The notes under the pieces were generated by a model, which was not told where the DNA came from, ran no database searches, and saw only the letters and a program-made list of their open reading frames with translations. A stretch of 64,000 nucleotides of DNA. Source: Rugalucina vietnamica (lineage: Eukaryota > Mollusca > Bivalvia > Lucinida > Lucinidae). The translations under genes and the position numbers were made by a program. The stretch is from contig OZ024876.1 in assembly GCA_964017185.1 (NCBI GenBank), positions 14,695,726 to 14,759,725 of the forward strand. Reading direction: 5' to 3'. Numbering within the stretch: the stretch's first letter is position 1; every line of letters starts with the position of its first letter. Positions 15,884-49,880 of this stretch are shown one piece after another.

Positions 15884-16432
15884 CATGTGGCAGCACAGAC
15901 ATCAGAAACAATGTGGACCAGTTTCAGAAACTTGCCAACTGTACCGTGATCGAGGGAGAACTCCAGATCCTGCTTATCGACTACGCCAAACCCGAGGATT
16001 ACGACAGTCTTCATTTCCCAGACCTGGTCGAGATCAAGGATTTTCTGCTTCTGTATCGTGTACAGGGATTACGTAGTCTTCGAAATATTTTTCCAAACTT
16101 GGCTGTGATCCGGGGGGAGAAGTTATTCAGTAACTATGCTCTCATCGCGTTTGAAATGCAAAGTTTGGAAGAGCTCGGTCTCGTTAGTCTCACGTCAATA
16201 CCAAAGGGTGCGGTGCGCTTGGAGGCCAATCCTAATCTCTGCTACATTGAAACAATCGACTGGACCAAGATTGCCACAGGGGTTTCCGAGAAGGATAACT
16301 TTTTCAAGGGGAATAAGGATACAAAGGAATGTGTGAATATGTGTGACAAAAGCTGTAACAAGACGATGGGCTACGACAGACTGGAACCGAGATGTTGGAC
16401 TCTCTATCCTAATGATTGTCAGCTCATGCTGT
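15884..16432 (+). CDS. INSR: Insulin-receptor-like gene, L1 domain exon
   Basis: Internal exon of an insulin/IGF-type receptor tyrosine kinase, encoding the extracellular first L domain that forms half of the primary ligand site. It follows a pyrimidine-rich acceptor ending TTTTTTTGCAG and ends at a GTAAGT donor. It is 549 nt, entered and left in phase 1, with 182 full codons open. Landmarks seen are CGSTDIRNN at the start, the sequon NCT in LANCTVIEG, QILLIDYAKPEDY, LLLYRVQGL, FPNLAVIRG, NYALIAFEM, LCYIETIDW, and the first Cys-rich residues NMCDKSCNKT. By human numbering recalled from memory, the site-1 positions Asp12, Arg14, Asn15, Leu36, Leu37 and Arg65 are kept, while Phe39 is replaced by Asp and Phe64 by Tyr. 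Human INSR exon 2 is of nearly the same size and phase. The signal-peptide exon was not found upstream. Confidence 0.96.
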
Positions 16433-19390: not shown

Positions 19391-20239
19391 CAGGGTTCGC
19401 ACAGGCTTGAAAAGTACTTGAAAATGAAGGGCTGTCTTGAAAAGTACTTGAAAACCAAATTTGCCTTGAAAAGTGCTGGAAAATTAGCCATTGGCCTTGA
19501 AAAGCACTTGAATTTAACTTCTTCCGGTATTCCAGACAATAAGATTCGGTTTCAAAATCAAATGTGAGCATTTAAGAAGAAGTTTGGCAAGTTTGAATAC
19601 AAAAAGATCGTCGAGAGCGCCATAATGAAGAAACAGGCCGAATGTGTATGGCGCGAATCGGTAACTGAGTTGCGTCCCTTGCAAAATGGTCGCGAAAATT
19701 TGGGCCGAAAATATATGGTGCGAATCGGTTCGTACCGTAATTGGGTTGCTTCCCTTGAGGAATGGTTCATGATTTATTGCATTTTCTTTATCTGCAATGA
19801 AAATCCATGATGAATACAGACTAAACGGAACCAAAATGACGTCGAAATGACATTTTTTCGAGGGCAAATTTAATTTCAACATTTCTTAACAAAATGGGAA
19901 AGTGCGTGTACAGCAGGGACTGGCCGAAACGTTATCCTTGGGTCAAGGAAACGGACAATAAACACAAGGCACATTGTCGTGCATGTAATAAAGATATTGA
20001 TGTGGCTCAAATGGGTGAAAGTGCTTTGCGCTCACACGCGAGTGGAGATCGACATAAGAAACATGAGCAGTCTTTATCTGGGACTTTCACAAACTTCTTT
20101 ATCAAGAAGGAAACAAAAGTTAAGACAGAACCCCCTACTACAGCATCCACCCCAAGTCCTTGAAAATGGTAAGATTTGTCCTTGAAAAGTCCTTGAAAAA
20201 GTCCTTGAATTTTACTTGGCCTTGCCTGTATGAACCCTG
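19391..20239 (+). mobile_element. hAT-like element with zinc-finger ORF
   Basis: 849 bp bounded by CAGGGTTCGCACAGGC and GCCTGTATGAACCCTG, an inverted pair. The subterminal regions carry repeated CCTTGAAAAGT words (four near the left end, three near the right, all in the same orientation). A zinc-finger ORF fills part of the interior. It interrupts MITE-1-like sequence: the right flank continues GTAGTACAATTC as in the MITE. The flanks share GTAGT but no exact 8-bp duplication, so superfamily assignment is tentative. Confidence 0.7.
19894..20163 (+). CDS. BED/C2H2-like zinc-finger protein fragment
   Basis: 89-codon ORF starting ATGGGAAAGTGC and ending in a stop just before the right CCTTGAAAA repeats. 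It reads MGKCVYSRDWPKRYPWVKET, then CRACNKDIDVAQMGESALRS HASGDRHKKH (split here), a Cys-x2-Cys ... His-x5-His finger at about residues 29-54, followed by a Ser/Thr/Lys-rich tail with KVKTEPPTT. This resembles the N-terminal DNA-binding finger of hAT-type transposases and their domesticated relatives. The catalytic part is absent, so it is either a decayed transposase end or a short finger-only protein. Its codon structure is intact. Confidence 0.65.
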   Translation: MGKCVYSRDWPKRYPWVKETDNKHKAHCRACNKDIDVAQMGESALRSHASGDRHKKHEQSLSGTFTNFFIKKETKVKTEPPTTASTPSP

Positions 20240-28549: not shown

Positions 28550-28731
28550 CCTGCCCAGCGTCCTGTGCTAGTGGTTTGTGTCATGGATCAACTTGCTGCA
28601 GCCCCGACTGTATAGGTGGCTGCACGGGACCTTCCTCTTCCGACTGTATCGCCTGCAAGGACGTGATCGAGTACCAGCCACCCGGCAAGAAAAAGAAATG
28701 TGCCAGGAATTGCTCGGGTGGTACATACCAG
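28550..28731 (+). CDS. INSR: Insulin-receptor-like gene, furin-like Cys-rich exon 1
   Basis: First part of the furin-like cysteine-rich region between the L domains. The acceptor is GTTTTTCAG and the donor CAG|GTTGGT. The exon is 182 nt, enters in phase 1 (T from the L1 exon plus CC gives Ser) and leaves in phase 0. The 60 complete codons hold 11 cysteines in receptor order, from CPASCASGLCHG through CSPDCIGGC, DCIACKD and CARNCSGGTYQ, matching the human CTAEGLCCHSECLGNC region in spacing. A basic stretch, PPGKKKKC, sits in the loop before the tenth cysteine. The intron before it is 12.1 kb. A 108-bp palindromic element lies 41 bp past its donor and a 1.3-kb TIR element ends 115 bp before its acceptor. 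Confidence 0.95.
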
Positions 28732-33097: not shown

Positions 33098-33296
33098 TTC
33101 AAGAACCGCCGCTGCCTTCTCCATGACCAGTGTGTTAACTTCTCGGATTACCCAGTCGGCCCAGATGTCCACTTCAAGCTTGTAACAGCGGCCAACTTTG
33201 GGCCGGGGCTCTGCGTCGACAAGTGTCCTGCGGGTACAAGAGAGGACAATAACGACATGTCAAAATGTGTGCCTTGCGTCGGAAAATGTCCAAAAT
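33098..33296 (+). CDS. INSR: Insulin-receptor-like gene, furin-like Cys-rich exon 2
   Basis: Second part of the cysteine-rich region, following acceptor TGTAATTTCAG and ending at donor GTATGT. It is 199 nt, enters in phase 0 and leaves in phase 1. It encodes FKNRRCLLHDQC, a sequon NFS, a spacer with HFKLVTAANFGPG, then CVDKCPAG and CVPCVGKCPK, with seven cysteines in all. CVDKCPAG followed by a C-P-C-x-G-x-C-PK ending is the usual close of the insulin-receptor Cys-rich region just before the second L domain. In human INSR the two Cys-rich exons seen here correspond to roughly one exon, so an extra intron is present at this point. A MITE-1 copy ends 42 nt upstream and a 763-bp TIR element starts 32 bp past the donor. 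Confidence 0.95.
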
Positions 33297-37115: not shown

Positions 37116-37214
37116 TATGTGCTGGTAAAATTGTGGACAGCATTAACTCTGCCCAAGAGCTGAAGGGTTGTACAACAATTACTGGTCCCTTGGAAATCAA
37201 CATTATGGGCGGAA
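37116..37214 (+). CDS. INSR: Insulin-receptor-like gene, start of L2 domain
   Basis: Short 99-nt exon opening the second L domain. The acceptor is CATGTTTACAG and the donor GTAAGT. Phase 1 on both sides (T from the previous exon plus TA gives Leu). It encodes CAGKIVDSINSAQELKGC, then TTITGPLEINIMGG, matching the human segment that ends with ELRGCTVINGSLIINIRGG. No stop interrupts the 32 internal codons. The immediate upstream 34 nt follow the right end of a truncated MITE-1 copy (GGCGGCTC at 37074-37081), so the MITE lies just 5' of the polypyrimidine tract. Confidence 0.94.
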
Positions 37215-39599: not shown

Positions 39600-39747
39600 G
39601 TCACATTGGACAGGAGCTGGAGGAAAATTTAAGTGAGATCGAAGAAGTGACGGAACATATCCGTATCTACCACTCGTATGCTCTGCTGTCTCTCTATTTC
39701 TTGAAGAATCTACGAGTCATCCATGGTACCAAACTGTATCAGGACAG
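39600..39747 (+). CDS. INSR: Insulin-receptor-like gene, central L2 exon
   Basis: Central part of the second L domain, 148 nt, entered in phase 1 (A+GT gives Ser) and left in phase 2. It encodes HIGQELEENLSEIEEVTEHI, then RIYHSYALLSLYFLKNLRVI and HGTKLYQDR, matching the human [20 protein letters not shown] and YALVSLSFFRKLRLIRG segments. The acceptor GATTACAG lies only 14 nt past the end of a MITE-1 copy. The donor CAG|GTAAGA is immediately followed by an imperfect second copy of the exon's last 46 bp with its own CAG|GTAAGG donor at 39801. Using that second donor would add 53 nt and put TAA right after the codon AGG, so the first donor is taken as real. Confidence 0.94.
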
Positions 39748-39802
39748 GTAAGAATCTACGGGTAATCCATGGTACCAAACTGTATCAGGAGTCAGGACAG
39801 GT
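39704..39802 (+). repeat. Tandem duplication across the L2 exon donor
   Basis: A 46-bp segment ending in the exon's donor (39704-39749, AAGAATCTACGAGTC...CAGGT) is followed directly by an imperfect copy (39750-39802) carrying a 7-bp insertion and two or more substitutions. The copy brings a second CAG|GTAAG donor 53 nt downstream of the first. Confidence 0.9.
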
Positions 39803-41746: not shown

Positions 41747-41961
41747 ATACTCGTTGGTGGTTTTTGACAACCTAAATCTGCAGGAATTGTTTCTGGAGAA
41801 GGTGGCTAGAAACCTGACGCTTCTAAACGGTACCGTCTGGTTCCAGTACAACCGTAAACTCTGCTATAAAAAGATTGAGACGTTCCTTAAAATGATCGGC
41901 CATGAAAAGAAGGTGTTAGAAACGGACATTTCTAAAGAAACAAATGGAGACCAGATGCCAT
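41747..41961 (+). CDS. INSR: Insulin-receptor-like gene, end of L2 domain
   Basis: Last part of the second L domain and the constitutive exon just before the alternative exon array. The acceptor is TGTGTTTTGTAG and the donor T|GTACGT. It is 215 nt, entered in phase 2 (AG+A gives Arg) and left in phase 1; from memory human INSR exon 6 is also 215 nt. It encodes YSLVVFDNLNLQELF, a sequon NLT and another NGT, VWFQYNRKLCYKKIETF and ends SKETNGDQMP. The ETNGDQ motif corresponds to human KTNGDQ just before the Cys that starts FnIII-1. The terminal T must be completed by GT or GC of one of four downstream exons, giving that Cys (TGT or TGC) each time. Confidence 0.95.
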
Positions 41962-43150: not shown

Positions 43151-43402
43151 ACTTTGTCATTTATGAGCAGTTTTCCGCCCACCTACTGATTGGCCCGTCT
43201 CATATGAGCTGAAATAATCTTGAAAGGGACGTAAAACTGAATTAAAAAAAAAAATTATGAGCAGTTGAAATTTCAGCCTCAGCTGAGTTGAGCTCGAAAA
43301 AAGTTTTATAACCTCGGGGCCGAGACTGCTCTGCCCGTAAATCAATGAGCCTAGGTAGATGCCCAGGATGGTCTTAGTCTTGGCTCTGAGTACTTGTCAT
43401 TT

Positions 43403-43630
43403 GAGCCATGTCATGAGAAAACAAACAATATGGTTTCCGAACAGGTTTGACACAAACCGAGCTGCACAAGCAGAGGCTAGAGGCTACAAATTTTGGATTT
43501 AGAAAGTAGAGGAATTGCACTATCCGTGTAGCGAAAACAAAGGCGCTGATCAGCTTCGCGGTTACCGCAAAGCTGATCTGCGTCTTTGTTTTCGCCTGTG
43601 CAAATTGTTGGTTTTCTCATGAGGCAGCTC
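43403..43630 (-). mobile_element. MITE-1 copy
   Basis: GAGCCATGTCATGAG and TCATGAGGCAGCTC ends, hairpin TTCGCGGTTACCGCAAA; left flank ATTT, right flank AATT. Confidence 0.83.
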
Positions 43631-43720
43631 AATTAATCTGCTTCGCCTGTACACTTCAACCTCATTATAACACCCCTCACTATAATGCAGTTTTCAATAT
43701 AACACATTATTTTGCTATAT

Positions 43721-43954
43721 GAGCCATCCCATGGGAAAAACAACAATCTGCATATGCGAAAACAAAGGCGCAGATCAGCTTCACGGTGACCGCGAAGCTG
43801 ATCAGCGCCTTTGTTTTAGCTACACGGATAGTACAATTCCTCTACTTTCTAAATCCAAAATTTCCAGTCTCTAGCCATCTTCTGTGATGGTACAGGCCGG
43901 TTTGTGTCGGACCTGTTCGGAAACCACATAGTTGGTTTTCCCACGAGGCGGCTC
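43721..43954 (+). mobile_element. MITE-1 copy nested in MITE-7
   Basis: Exactly bounded by ATAT duplicates (43717-43720 and 43955-43958), confirmed by the empty site in the uninterrupted MITE-7 copy, which has one ATAT. Confidence 0.93.
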
Positions 43955-44030
43955 ATATGTCTATAGTAAGTAGCCTAATTATAACACAGTTTCACATATA
44001 ACATGGTCTGTTTCTATGGACCTCAAGAGA

Positions 44031-46214: not shown

Positions 46215-46341
46215 GTGACATTCAGGAGCTAGCATTTTCGGTGTTAAAAGTGACACCCCATATTGCTATATTGTCCTGGTCTAATTTTAACATCACGGAT
46301 CAGCGTCATTTGATCAGTTACACAATTAATTATAAAGAAGC
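46215..46341 (+). CDS. INSR: Alternative exon A, start of FnIII-1
   Basis: First of four interchangeable 127-nt exons. The acceptor is CTTAATCTAG and the donor GC|GTAAGT. Entering with T+GT gives the conserved Cys, then DIQELAFSVLKVTPHIAI, LSWSNFNITDQRHL, ISYTINYKEA. It matches the human FnIII-1 start ending in GFMLFYKEAP; from memory human exon 7 is also 127 nt. PHIAILSW aligns with human FDKILLRW, which holds Asp483, Lys484, Leu486 and Arg488 of insulin site 2. It carries an NIT glycosylation sequon. It is 31/42 identical to variant C, 24/42 to B and 16/42 to D by my count. Exit is phase 2 (GC+N gives Ala). Confidence 0.94.
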
Positions 46342-46813
46342 GTAAGTGATATCATCGGCTGCATGTCCTTCATAAAATTCTCTCACAACTTTTTATCCCA
46401 GTTGAAACTTGAAGCATCATGCTACATGTTACACCATAATGAGTGGGAAAGTACACATAAAACAAAAAAAAAAAATAAAGATTAAGAACATGAGATTTAG
46501 TTTATTGTAGAATTATTCATAGCAACTCATAGCATGTGTAATTATCTTTTAGTTATCAATAAAGGTTTACTTTTTGAGATTTCTTTGAAAAGATTTTGTA
46601 TTTGTATTTGAACAAAAACATTTAAAAAAAATAAAATATTTTAAATGAAATTTTCATGTTTAACAGCTGAAAAAAAAAACACACAAAAAACTGTATATTG
46701 CAAAGGCAAGTTTTCGCGATGTGTTTTCTTCATTTAATCATTTCATTGAAACATCAATAGAGAAAAGCAGTCTTATGATTGTATATGGCTGTCAGATGCT
46801 TCAAGTTTCATTT

Positions 46814-47048
46814 GAGCCGCGTCATGAGAAAACCGGATTTTTGCCTAGGCGAAAACAAAGGCGCAGATCAGCTTCGCGGTAACCGCGAAGCTGATCAGCG
46901 CCTTTGTTTTCGCTACTCGGATAGTACAATTCCTCTTCTTTCTAAATCCAAAATTTCAAGCTTCTAGCTCTTTTCTGAGCCTGTACAGGCCGGTTTGTGT
47001 CGGACCTGGTCGGAAACCCCGAAGACCGGTTTTCTCGCGTCGCGGCTC
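46814..47048 (+). mobile_element. MITE-1 copy, intact
   Basis: ATTT on both sides. Hairpin TTCGCGGTAACCGCGAA perfect; both ends of the CCGG type (AAAACCGG and CCGGTTTT). Lies between alternative exons A and B. Confidence 0.92.
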
Positions 47049-47371
47049 ATTTTTTACCGTTTCTTGAATATGTTTGTGAATGAGACAATGTTTAGTGTTT
47101 TATGCTGTTTTGTCACGTTTAAACAACCATTGCCATGGTAACATGATTTGTTGAATTTTCACCATTTTCTTGCTTGATGTTTTGAAAGGGTCATTCCCCA
47201 CTTGTCATATCTCATTTGCAATTTTTCAAGAACATGCATAGCATGAATGTTTCTCTATAATCAGAGCTTGTAAGAGCGCTAGAAAATGAAATTTGATGAT
47301 GTTTACATGTCGTTTTTCTATCGACGGAAGAGGGTAGATGGCATTTTGAAACAATGATGCAGTCAATAAAT

Positions 47372-47555
47372 GAGCCGCCTGATGAGAAAACCAACAATCT
47401 GCATAGGCAAAAACAAATGTGCAGATCAGCTTCGCGGTTACACCGCGAAGCTGATCAGTGCCTTTGTTTTCGCTACAGGGATAGTACACTTCCTCTTCTT
47501 CGTAAATCTGAAATTTCAAGCTTCTAGCCTGCTTCTGTGCTTGAATCAAGGCTAT
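47372..47555 (+). mobile_element. MITE-1 copy, right-truncated
   Basis: GAGCCGCCTGATGAG left end, hairpin TTCGCGGTTACACCGCGAA with an enlarged loop; ends after CTGCTTCTGTGCTTG. Confidence 0.78.
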
Positions 47556-48440
47556 GTCGTCCTTTAGTTATCATAAAAATATGTATACAAATATATCAGA
47601 AATTCTTTTAAACTACACTAACGAAAATCATCAAATATTCTAGTGCTCTTTATTTCTAAATTTGTGTAATTTAATCAGTAATAATTGCACGTTATATTTT
47701 CTAAGCAGAGTGAAACCCATTGATTTTTTGCTTGGCGCTTCGACACAGCAATAAATACGAAAAAAGCTGCAAATCTCTCAGAGATTATCCACTCTATTTT
47801 TTACTGGGCCAATTAAGTTGTGAAAGAACCATCTTCTAGCTAGATAGAGAGCTAGTTTGGTTGGTACTGAGTCCTGCTAGGGTAGGAACATCCCCCCTCC
47901 TTGTCCTTTGTACCTGTGTATTATAACCAGAAATTCAAACCCACATTGTTTCAACATTCAGTATACATTGTACCCATAAGCAGAATTCAAGCAGTCATAA
48001 ACCAGGGAAATGGTTTGTATAAATGTTTTGAATTGTTTTGTGTTTCTCAGGTCAATAGTGATTATTGTTTGGTCAATTTACCGTGAATGTCCTAAACTTT
48101 CCGACACCAAAAGCTCCCGTTAGCATTTCTATACCAACTTGGCTGCTGCAGTTTGGCTACTTTATGGAAGGCATAACATCAAAATAATATATTTAGCATG
48201 GCAAACAGTAAGCTCTTGATCAGAGGGCAGTTTTACATGGGCTTGTGTTTTTTGCGAATATTAATGTCTGAAAGTTTAGGATACTTTTGGGTAACGCTGT
48301 ACAGTTTTGTGCCGTCGTGCTCGTGCTGCTGCGTAACTGCGTACTCCCTGTTCTGTCGCGCGGGAATGATGTGCCGTGTTGGTGAATGTACCGAATGTTT
48401 ATATGTTGTTGATGACAATTTTGATTCTTGTTCTTCCTAG

Positions 48441-48567
48441 GTTCAATCAAGACGATTGATTTCAGAGTTTTAAATGCTGCACCCCACATAGCTATCCTTA
48501 CATGGAAGCCTGTCAAGCTACCTGATATGCGGCACCTTATAAGTTATACTTTGAATTATAAAGAAGC
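48441..48567 (+). CDS. INSR: Alternative exon B, start of FnIII-1
   Basis: Second member of the array, 127 nt, acceptor TTCTTCCTAG, donor GC|GTAAGT, phases 1 in and 2 out. After the Cys it encodes SIKTIDFRVLNAAPHIAI, LTWKPVKLPDMRHL, ISYTLNYKEA. It keeps the core PHIAIL-W and RHLISYT but replaces the loop after the Trp (KPVKLPD against SNFNITD in A), which removes the glycosylation sequon and adds two lysines and two prolines. Like human WEPYWPPD, this loop is Pro-rich. Only 70 nt separate its donor from the acceptor of variant C, against 2,099 nt back to variant A. Confidence 0.94.
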
Positions 48568-48637
48568 GTAAGTGTTACTTGTAGCTGTATTGTATTGAGA
48601 TGTTTTTGCATTATACTGTATACCATTCTCCTGATAG
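48568..48637 (+). other. 70-nt intron between alternative exons B and C
   Basis: Very short intron flanked by exon B (donor GTAAGTGTT) and exon C (acceptor CTGATAG). B-to-C joining gives a frameshift with TAA close to the end of C, so this intron should not be productively spliced in the same transcript. Its size is near the practical minimum, which would disfavour simultaneous recognition of both sites. Confidence 0.8.
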
Positions 48638-48764
48638 GCGATATACACCAGCTGGGGATAGCGATACTCCGGGTAACCCCACACATAGCAATTTTCTCGT
48701 GGGAAAATTTCAACATCACGGACCCGCGCCATCTAATAAGTTATACTATCAACTTTAAGGAAGC
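48638..48764 (+). CDS. INSR: Alternative exon C, start of FnIII-1
   Basis: Third member of the array, 127 nt, acceptor CCTGATAG, donor GC|GTAAGT, phases 1 in (T+GC gives Cys) and 2 out. It encodes DIHQLGIAILRVTPHIAI, FSWENFNITDPRHL, ISYTINFKEA. It is the closest relative of variant A, sharing the NIT sequon and most of the second half, so A and C look like the most recent duplication pair or have exchanged sequence by gene conversion. The acceptor has a weak polypyrimidine tract (ACCATTCTCCTGATAG), which may matter for choice between B and C across the 70-nt intron. Confidence 0.93.
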
Positions 48765-49753
48765 GTAAGTGAACCTACTCACAACCCTAAAATTTCCACC
48801 AGTTGCCCAAGAAAACGGAACTGCTATCAGTGCATGGCTTCTCAGTGTCACGGGGACATATTGACATTTTGACAGTAGGCTAAAAGAGGCATCTGTACAA
48901 GCACAGTAGATTTAGCTGATCTGGCAAGATACATGTACACACTTCTAGATGATATTATCATTTGATATGTGGTTGCTGGTTTTGGGTGCATGTTAGAAAC
49001 TTTAAATTGCGTGAATTAAAACATTGTTTTAGTGCATGAAAAAATATAGTGATTAAAAGACGAAACGAAAGTTTCATTCAGTGATGGAATTCTTTGTGCA
49101 TTATACTTTTCTCAAAACTATCATTCAGCTATAATGCAAACAGTTATTGGCTTAAAATGCATCCTTGCTGAATACTCTAGTGACTTTCATATTATAAAAA
49201 GGTTTCTTTGAAAACTGAAAGCCTGTTTTGGAGAGGTGTTAAGTAATATTATAAGCATGCTATAGGAAGTCTATGTGATGTTTAAAAAGAAATCTTTTCA
49301 TGTAATTATATTATATTCAGATTTTGCATGAGGTGTAGATTTGTAATAACAATGAAAGAAAAGGTGTAGTATGTTAATGGTAGAAAAAGCTTTTCTTTGT
49401 GTTCTTAGTACATGTATGTTGACAGATAAAATGATGCCTGTTTTGGTCATACACTCAATGTTAGATACAAATGGAGAGGCTGAGGGTTAGGGAAAACTGG
49501 GCGGGGCACAATTATATGTAGTGTTTGTCCACATGTGTAATCTCTGGTGGAAGACTTTACTGACACTTGGTGTGTAGCTTTATTAACACACTTTATGTAT
49601 TTTGGCTTAATACCAGTGTATGTCATGTTGTATATAATTGCACTGTAGCACAAAAGGCTGGTATGTTCCGTTTTCTTGTAAACAAACTGGTGGGAAGTGT
49701 GTCTTGTGTTATTTTAATTTTTAAGTCACTTAGCATAATCCTCATCTCTGTAG

Positions 49754-49880
49754 GCGACATTCGAGTCCTCAAGCTCTCTGTAACCACCATTGGAAGTGAA
49801 ACAGTGTTTTTTAAGTGGACCAATTTCCAAACCCGGGATGTTAGACACTTAATTGGTTACTATCTTAAACTTACAGAAGC
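49754..49880 (+). CDS. INSR: Alternative exon D, start of FnIII-1
   Basis: Fourth and most divergent member, 127 nt, acceptor CTCATCTCTGTAG, donor GC|GTGAGT, phases 1 in and 2 out. It encodes DIRVLKLSVTTIGSETVF, FKWTNFQTRDVRHL, IGYYLKLTEA. The site-2 strand reads SETVFFKW in place of PHIAILSW, and there is no NxS/T sequon. It keeps the Cys, the Trp, RHLI and the terminal EA at the same positions as the others, so it is a true alternative of the same segment rather than the next constitutive exon. No further copy was seen in the remaining 14 kb. Confidence 0.92.

Follow-up and report, generated by a model that had tools for sequence, protein, structure and literature searches.

An array of four variant exons

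We analysed a 64,000-nucleotide stretch of the genome of the lucinid bivalve Rugalucina vietnamica (hereafter the window), which lies at C8:14695726-14759725 of a 1.09-Gb assembly (GCA_964017185.1; C8 is contig OZ024876.1). The + strand of the window carries the 5' half of an insulin-receptor-family gene, and within this gene is a tandem array of four homologous exons, V1 to V4, equal in length and phase, each open and each bordered by splice sites. The array lies at the start of the first fibronectin type III domain (FnIII-1). Positions are those of the window; positions above 64,000, which we call window-scale, lie beyond its end and continue the same numbering.

46215..46341, + strand: V1 variant exon, 127 nt, phase 1 to 2, peptide DIQELAFSVLKVTPHIAILSWSNFNITDQRHLISYTINYKEA, with an N-I-T sequon
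48441..48567, + strand: V2 variant exon, 127 nt, the most INSR/IGF1R-like copy (13 and 15 of 42 residues identical), without sequon
48568..48637, + strand: V2-V3 intron, 70 nt
48638..48764, + strand: V3 variant exon, 127 nt, closest to V1 (31 of 42 residues identical), with an N-I-T sequon
49754..49880, + strand: V4 variant exon, 127 nt, the most divergent copy (12-16 of 42 residues identical to the other copies), without sequon

Re-reading the sequence, we agree with a first-pass annotation of this DNA on the borders of the four exons. Each has AG before it and GT after it; the first letters are GT in V1 and V2 and GC in V3 and V4 (completing TGT or TGC, a cysteine codon), and the last letters are GC in all. 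The annotation had also described each exon as open over 42 codons. The open frame stands; the count does not, as each exon comprises 41 complete codons and a split codon at either end (2 + 123 + 2 nt). All four copies are entered in phase 1 and left in phase 2, and the constitutive exon that precedes them, ending in ETNGDQMP (41747-41961, 215 nt), itself ends in phase 1, so that the phase is shared as proposed. The variant donors read AGC/GTAAGT in three copies and AGC/GTGAGT in one (the slash marks the exon border), and they score 5.8-6.3 compared with 4.5-11.0 for six constitutive exons of the gene on an approximate matrix. The introns inside the array measure 2099, 70 and 989 nt.

The copies are homologous to one another, as the annotation had it: leave-one-out profiles run against the six-frame window recovered every left-out copy (E 6.9e-25 for V1, 1.8e-15 for V2, 3.2e-22 for V3 and 4.2e-6 for V4), and the best unrelated matches in these searches had E 0.12 to 0.28. 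Peptide identity between copies ranges from 12 to 31 of 42. Neither protein nor DNA profiles revealed a fifth copy in the window, nor did a protein profile in the surrounding 214 kb (the window, 120 kb downstream and 30 kb upstream). A weak match at window-scale 69835 (E 0.51) was rejected as a fifth copy; it sits on the exon labelled 8b.

Could the array be an artefact of assembly, with one exon duplicated or several alleles or genes collapsed? The copies differ from each other at 43-70 of 127 nt, and their flanking sequences show little likeness (28-45% over 60 nt, ungapped), neither of which favours this explanation. The region is nevertheless rich in repeats, 48% of the window being masked by self-similarity. 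Against that, queries with V1 (joined to the L2 exon), V2 and V4 had no place outside the locus in the whole assembly among their best candidates, and we consider an artefact extremely improbable.

The variant exons encode the start of FnIII-1

The first-pass annotation placed V1-V4 at the start of FnIII-1, and this assignment is borne out: the variants are homologous to the single segment of INSR and IGF1R at the same place. Human INSR has one exon at this position, of 127 bp. Joined to the preceding exon, V1 aligns to residues 469-510 of mature human INSR and 459-500 of IGF1R without a gap in the variant part, and V4 gives the same alignment to human INSR, reaching residue 509. A profile of the four variants without the upstream exon, compared with 177,635 PDB sequences, has IGF1R and INSR as its leading matches, with best E-values of 0.0015 and 0.045; these values are modest, and INSR or IGF1R account for the top 34 of the 37 matches at E up to 1. 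With the human exon as probe against the window, E is 0.00018 for V2, 0.063 for V1, 0.095 for V4 and 1 for V3, and because of this last value V3 alone would be unrecognisable by such a probe. Once completed by its downstream exons, FnIII-1 matches PDB chains with best E-values of 4.7e-23 (V1), 3e-24 (V2), 9.8e-22 (V3) and 2.2e-20 (V4), with IGF1R at the top. Each choice of exon is predicted to replace the first third of FnIII-1.

The reading frame favours inclusion of a single copy

Joined as far as the first FnIII-2 exon, only four of the 16 possible inclusion subsets are open, and these are the four single copies. All 12 others are closed: with no variant included a stop follows two codons past the junction, and every one of the six pairs, the four triples and the quadruple contains a stop. 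Because these 12 subsets meet a stop, only one-copy transcripts would be productive. The reading frame in this way supports the annotation's proposal of a mutually exclusive array, and in actual splicing the exons are very probably mutually exclusive.

The mechanism we propose is simple. One variant would be spliced between the donor after 41961 and a 54-nt exon at window-scale 65746. The reading frame would enforce exclusivity at least as a backstop, and frame together with nonsense-mediated decay would be the minimal mechanism. For one pair there may be more: as the intron between them is so short (70 nt), splicing of V2 to V3 may be hindered, and steric hindrance would then add to the constraint of the frame.

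We also compared the introns with one another for RNA pairing. Four of ten intron pairs (I1-I2, I1-I5, I2-I3 and I2-I5) score above all 20 block-shuffled controls, with crude shuffles and repeats masked, and both pairs that involve I5 map to A- or T-rich runs or close to them. For I1-I2, the best duplex (-48.3 kcal/mol) is inside the range of 2000 random 80-nt pairs (minimum -55.8 kcal/mol, from control introns that were not repeat-masked).

A motif pattern near two of the copies deserves mention. TGCATG, an Rbfox site, has been reported downstream of daf-2 exon 11.5 (PMC4876481). On the + strand here, TGCATG occurs 19 nt past the V1 donor and 67, 223 and 269 nt past the V3 donor. The V3-V4 intron (48765-49753, 989 nt) contains four occurrences against an expectation of 0.56 (P 0.0026, post hoc); over the entire window the motif is not in excess (57 copies, both strands counted, vs 52), and one of six constitutive exons has the motif within 300 nt downstream. 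We regard this Rbfox-type pattern near V1 and V3 as a lead only.

Old duplications, with V1-V3 kept as protein

The codons of the variants speak to their age. Synonymous divergence (by the NG86 method) is saturated in five of the six pairs and 2.8 in the remaining pair, with nonsynonymous divergence of 0.17 to 0.80, and the differences between V1 and V3 fall at 8 first, 5 second and 29 third codon positions. In a neutral simulation that applied the same number of random changes, with 4000 runs per directed comparison, the observed identity was reached in 0 of 4000 runs in each of the six directed comparisons among V1, V2 and V3. Because synonymous sites are saturated and yet the V1-V3 peptides are conserved, we read the duplications as old and V1-V3 as clearly selected as protein. 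The case that V4 is kept as protein would draw in addition on its length, its open frame, its splice sites and how well it fits the family. In the viral and prokaryotic sequence collections viral_contigs and genome_contigs, no relatives of the variants were found.

This pattern bears on a rival account, in which only one or two copies make receptor and the rest see little use or serve as poison exons, whose inclusion beside another copy would shift the frame of the mRNA and lower the receptor level. A poison exon would not need the protein selection that conserved amino acids at saturated synonymous sites imply. Moreover, each of the four copies is open, completes FnIII-1 and has splice sites on a par with those of constitutive exons (by the approximate matrix). 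The poison role is mechanically available, as any double inclusion gives a stop, and it would suit V4 best, the most divergent copy and the one under the weakest protein-level constraint; V4 with the L2 exon nevertheless scores a little higher against human INSR than V1 (67.8 vs 65.3 bits). On balance we find this account unlikely.

The swapped segment and the ligand and activation surface

What would such a swap change? In human INSR, site 2 is made up of Tyr477, Arg479, Ser481, Asp483, Lys484, Leu486, Arg488 and seven more residues; the contacts at site 1b are Pro495, Phe497 and Arg498; Asp496, Arg498 and Asp499 bridge to alpha-CT; and the substitutions K484E, F497A, D496A and R498E impair activation of the receptor (PMC6721835). 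In the fly receptor, site 2 is likewise on FnIII-1 and binds DILP5 (PMC10560217). By homology, the exon covers seven of the 14 human site-2 contacts and all three of the named site-1b contacts.

Asp496 and Arg498 are the same in all four variants, and position 499 is histidine in all. At the other positions the residues of V1/V2/V3/V4 are K/N/R/T at 479, T/A/T/G at 481, H/H/H/E at 483, I/I/I/T at 484, I/I/I/F at 486, S/T/S/K at 488, T/P/T/R at 495 and Q/M/P/V at 497. An N-glycosylation sequon, N-I-T at 493-495, is present in V1 and V3 only, and these two copies would place it in the site-1b loop. Cells would then select between receptor forms in which the dimer-activating geometry is preserved (Asp496 and Arg498 being fixed) and which may bind the animal's several insulin-like peptides with different affinity or selectivity, or may have different activation thresholds.

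We put the probability that V1-V4 form a mutually exclusive cassette that alters the ligand and activation surface of FnIII-1 at roughly 0.85, on sequence evidence. Several results weigh against this interpretation. Docking and selector RNA pairing is not established, and the ten intron pairs showed no site shared between several introns. Selection on V4 appears weaker: in the six directed comparisons that involve it, the observed identity is reached in 8 to 111 of 4000 runs. The contact positions show no significant enrichment of variation, whether counted as distinct residues (site 2, p 0.24; site 2 and site 1b together, p 0.14) or as mean BLOSUM62 score (p 0.19 for site 2, 0.085 with site 1b added). 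A deep mutational scan of human INSR reported that single site-2 mutations are mild on average, and doubted the relevance of the site in vivo (PMC12528385). As for the gene itself, the downstream exon matches listed include none to a transmembrane stretch, and kinase-domain relatives gave 21 genome matches at E up to 1e-10, 19 of them outside this gene.

Without Arg498, in a set chosen post hoc, the contact enrichment has p 0.056 by distinct residues and 0.026 by BLOSUM62. Because variation is not significantly concentrated at contacts, the ligand-tuning step is one that we infer, and taken by itself it stands at about even odds.

The same null results leave room for another account of exclusive exons, in which they tune dimer stability, surface expression, glycosylation or proteolysis rather than ligand binding. 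The variant strand would also pack against the FnIII-1 core and face L2; the sequon separates V1 and V3 from V2 and V4; and both the lack of significant enrichment at contacts and the mild average effect of human site-2 mutations are in keeping with such a role. Set against this are the seven of 14 site-2 contacts and the three named site-1b contacts that lie within the exon, and the chemical differences among the variants at 479, 488 and 497. We regard this alternative as possible and somewhat short of probable.

One receptor locus and several insulin-like peptides

Consider next the receptors and hormones of the genome. At E up to 0.001, an L1 query had one genome match, a cysteine-rich/L2 query had three, all of them exons of this locus, and an L2-plus-V1 query had four, all at this locus; V4 was found by its own query instead. 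An insulin family model matched eight places, seven of them over the curated cut-off, with weak E-values (0.003-0.26). Six of these places are A-chain-like. The other two are B-chain-like (one of them under the cut-off), and about 4 kb separates them from two A chains. An added cysteine (CECCYH[KR]C) is present in four of the six A chains, a feature that fits the insulin-related peptides of molluscs.

Two of the A-chain exons, at C6:34390020 and C6:35964803, are 1.6 Mb apart and near-identical over about 1 kb (ungapped), the product of either a recent duplication or an assembly duplication. With six A-chain-like loci of which two are near-identical, and with receptor queries that match this locus, we count about five or six insulin-like peptide genes against one found receptor.

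A kinase exon elsewhere, at C6:24749226-24749429, is 72% identical to the kinase of this receptor over query residues 35-98. It is perhaps a Venus kinase receptor.

If the cassette does alter the ligand surface, a larger idea suggests itself: that splicing lets one gene tell several insulin-like peptides apart, each cell displaying one of four FnIII-1 faces. We offer it tentatively and think it rather less likely than not. V1 and V3 would then have a glycan by the site-1b loop and TGCATG closely downstream, and V2 and V4 would lack them. Hormone selectivity or activation threshold might be set tissue by tissue with no extra receptor genes. If true, one found receptor could separate the signals of several insulin-like peptides by splicing.

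Comparison with known systems

Exons IIIb and IIIc of FGFR1-3 are mutually exclusive and encode part of Ig-III, a ligand-contacting domain of the ectodomain (PMC12828087). These receptors are a works-like analogue of the array: in both, the gene is a receptor tyrosine kinase and the swapped segment lies at the ligand interface (in R. vietnamica by homology only). The two differ in family, in the domain concerned (FnIII rather than Ig) and in number (four exons rather than two), and the effect on ligands is one reported for FGFR.

Within the insulin-receptor family, splicing in the ectodomain alters receptor behaviour through INSR exon 11, which distinguishes IR-A from IR-B, and daf-2 exon 11.5 (PMC4876481, PMC2577065). 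The array is likewise a candidate for alternative splicing in an insulin-receptor ectodomain. However, those two exons are single optional cassettes in the insert/alpha-CT region, whereas the array has four copies of one exon, placed where FnIII-1 starts, and a transcript without any of them would meet a stop after two codons.

Tandem mutually exclusive arrays are known from Dscam. Mhc, CadN and other genes also have homologous tandem exons of which one is used (PMC9013439), and the array resembles these in its tandem homologous exons; unlike theirs, its use of competing RNA structures is not established. In Daphnia pulex, by contrast, the insulin receptor is reported to have been diversified by whole-gene duplication (PMC2978223) rather than by duplication of an exon.

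The first-pass annotation knew of no such array described at this position of an insulin receptor, and none in an insulin receptor came to light in a full-text literature search, which covered the titles and abstract beginnings of the top matches and few subscription journals. The main texts of papers on the pearl oyster and cuttlefish receptors (PMC4766514, PMC9654127) contain neither 'splic' nor 'exon', and in the main text of a paper on oyster splicing (PMC6611504), mutually exclusive exons appear as a generic category and insulin receptors in the references only. Gene-prediction records for other molluscs may already carry such isoforms. As far as checked, then, this is a known kind of device in a new place and number for the insulin-receptor family.

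The role of site 2 is itself debated, with cryo-EM structures and mutants in support (PMC6721835) and little average effect in the deep mutational scan (PMC12528385). A four-way natural swap of the site-2 surface on an otherwise fixed receptor would, if true, amount to a ready-made test of the function of this surface. Moreover, the array gives a clear prediction for routine mollusc RNA-seq.

The host gene

The exons before the array were found as matches to the human INSR sequence, with the probe starting at mature residue 1; their edges and phases were set by hand, and downstream exons were joined as far as the first FnIII-2 exon.

15884..16432, + strand: L1 exon, 549 nt, matching human INSR at 49% identity (15886-16401)
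28550..28731, + strand: cysteine-rich exon 1, 182 nt, constitutive
33098..33296, + strand: cysteine-rich exon 2, 199 nt, constitutive
37116..37214, + strand: start-of-L2 exon, 99 nt, constitutive
39600..39747, + strand: L2 exon, 148 nt, constitutive
41747..41961, + strand: end-of-L2 exon (...ETNGDQMP), just upstream of the array, 215 nt, constitutive, donor GTACGT
window-scale 65746-65799 (C8:14761471-14761524), + strand: DAC-cysteine exon, next after the array, 54 nt, A-PVKNVSIYQGRDACSDD
window-scale 69876-70051, + strand: exon completing FnIII-1, joins all four variants in frame
window-scale 70484, + strand: first FnIII-2 exon, which all four variants join in frame

The six upstream exons, joined, form an open frame that continues into any of the variants (505 complete codons). 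Pfam recognises Recep_L_domain in two stretches (1.3e-54) and Furin-like (9.3e-23) in their product. Matches to FnIII-2, FnIII-3 and kinase exons follow at window-scale 70480 to about 101519, and the matched stretches are stop-free. The kinase motifs read HRDLAARNCMV and DFGMTRDIYETDYYRKG; those of the insulin-receptor family are HRDLAARN, DFG and a YxxxYY activation loop. With L1, the cysteine-rich region and L2 identified by Pfam, FnIII-1 by its PDB match and kinase exons downstream, the assignment to the insulin-receptor family made in the first-pass annotation holds, and over the parts read the gene appears intact.

The annotation gave no position for the next exon downstream of the array. 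None was found within the window when its three + frames were compared with PDB chains at E up to 1. The weak matches that did appear numbered 1, 2 and 26 per frame, with best E 0.0069 (a transporter and a beta-hexosaminidase) and without insulin-receptor chains among them. We placed the exon 1.7 kb past the window end, where the 54-nt candidate scored 53, compared with 26 for the runner-up among 335 candidates.

An extra intron splits FnIII-1 and leaves this 54-nt exon with the DAC cysteine. Human INSR has a single exon where the extra intron lies, and the DAC cysteine has an inter-subunit (dimer) role in the human receptor. In the fly receptor, a dimer role of the cysteine has been noted for Cys873 (PMC10560217).

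Duplicates of the other exons of the gene are absent from the 214 kb at tblastn E up to 0.05, with two exceptions: 14 residues repeated in tandem next to the donor of the L2 exon, and the exons of FnIII-2 and FnIII-3, which resemble each other. At the first of these, a segment of about 50 bp, which takes in the L2 exon's 3' end along with the donor, is tandemly repeated (39748-39800), giving rise to a second donor, CAG/GTAAGG, at 39801. This donor, if used, would run into a TAA at the repeat junction.

Other features of the window

The long intron after the L1 exon contains an open stretch of 107 codons (19840-20160), which by eye resembles a fragment of a zinc-finger transposon and has no Pfam match at E 0.1. 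The intron before V1 contains a long imperfect inverted repeat (43398-43959; 76% over 580 columns). Finally, an interspersed repeat of about 250 bp, present at 46805-47058 and at many other places, has 48 matches of at least 100 nt in the 64-kb window, in both orientations.

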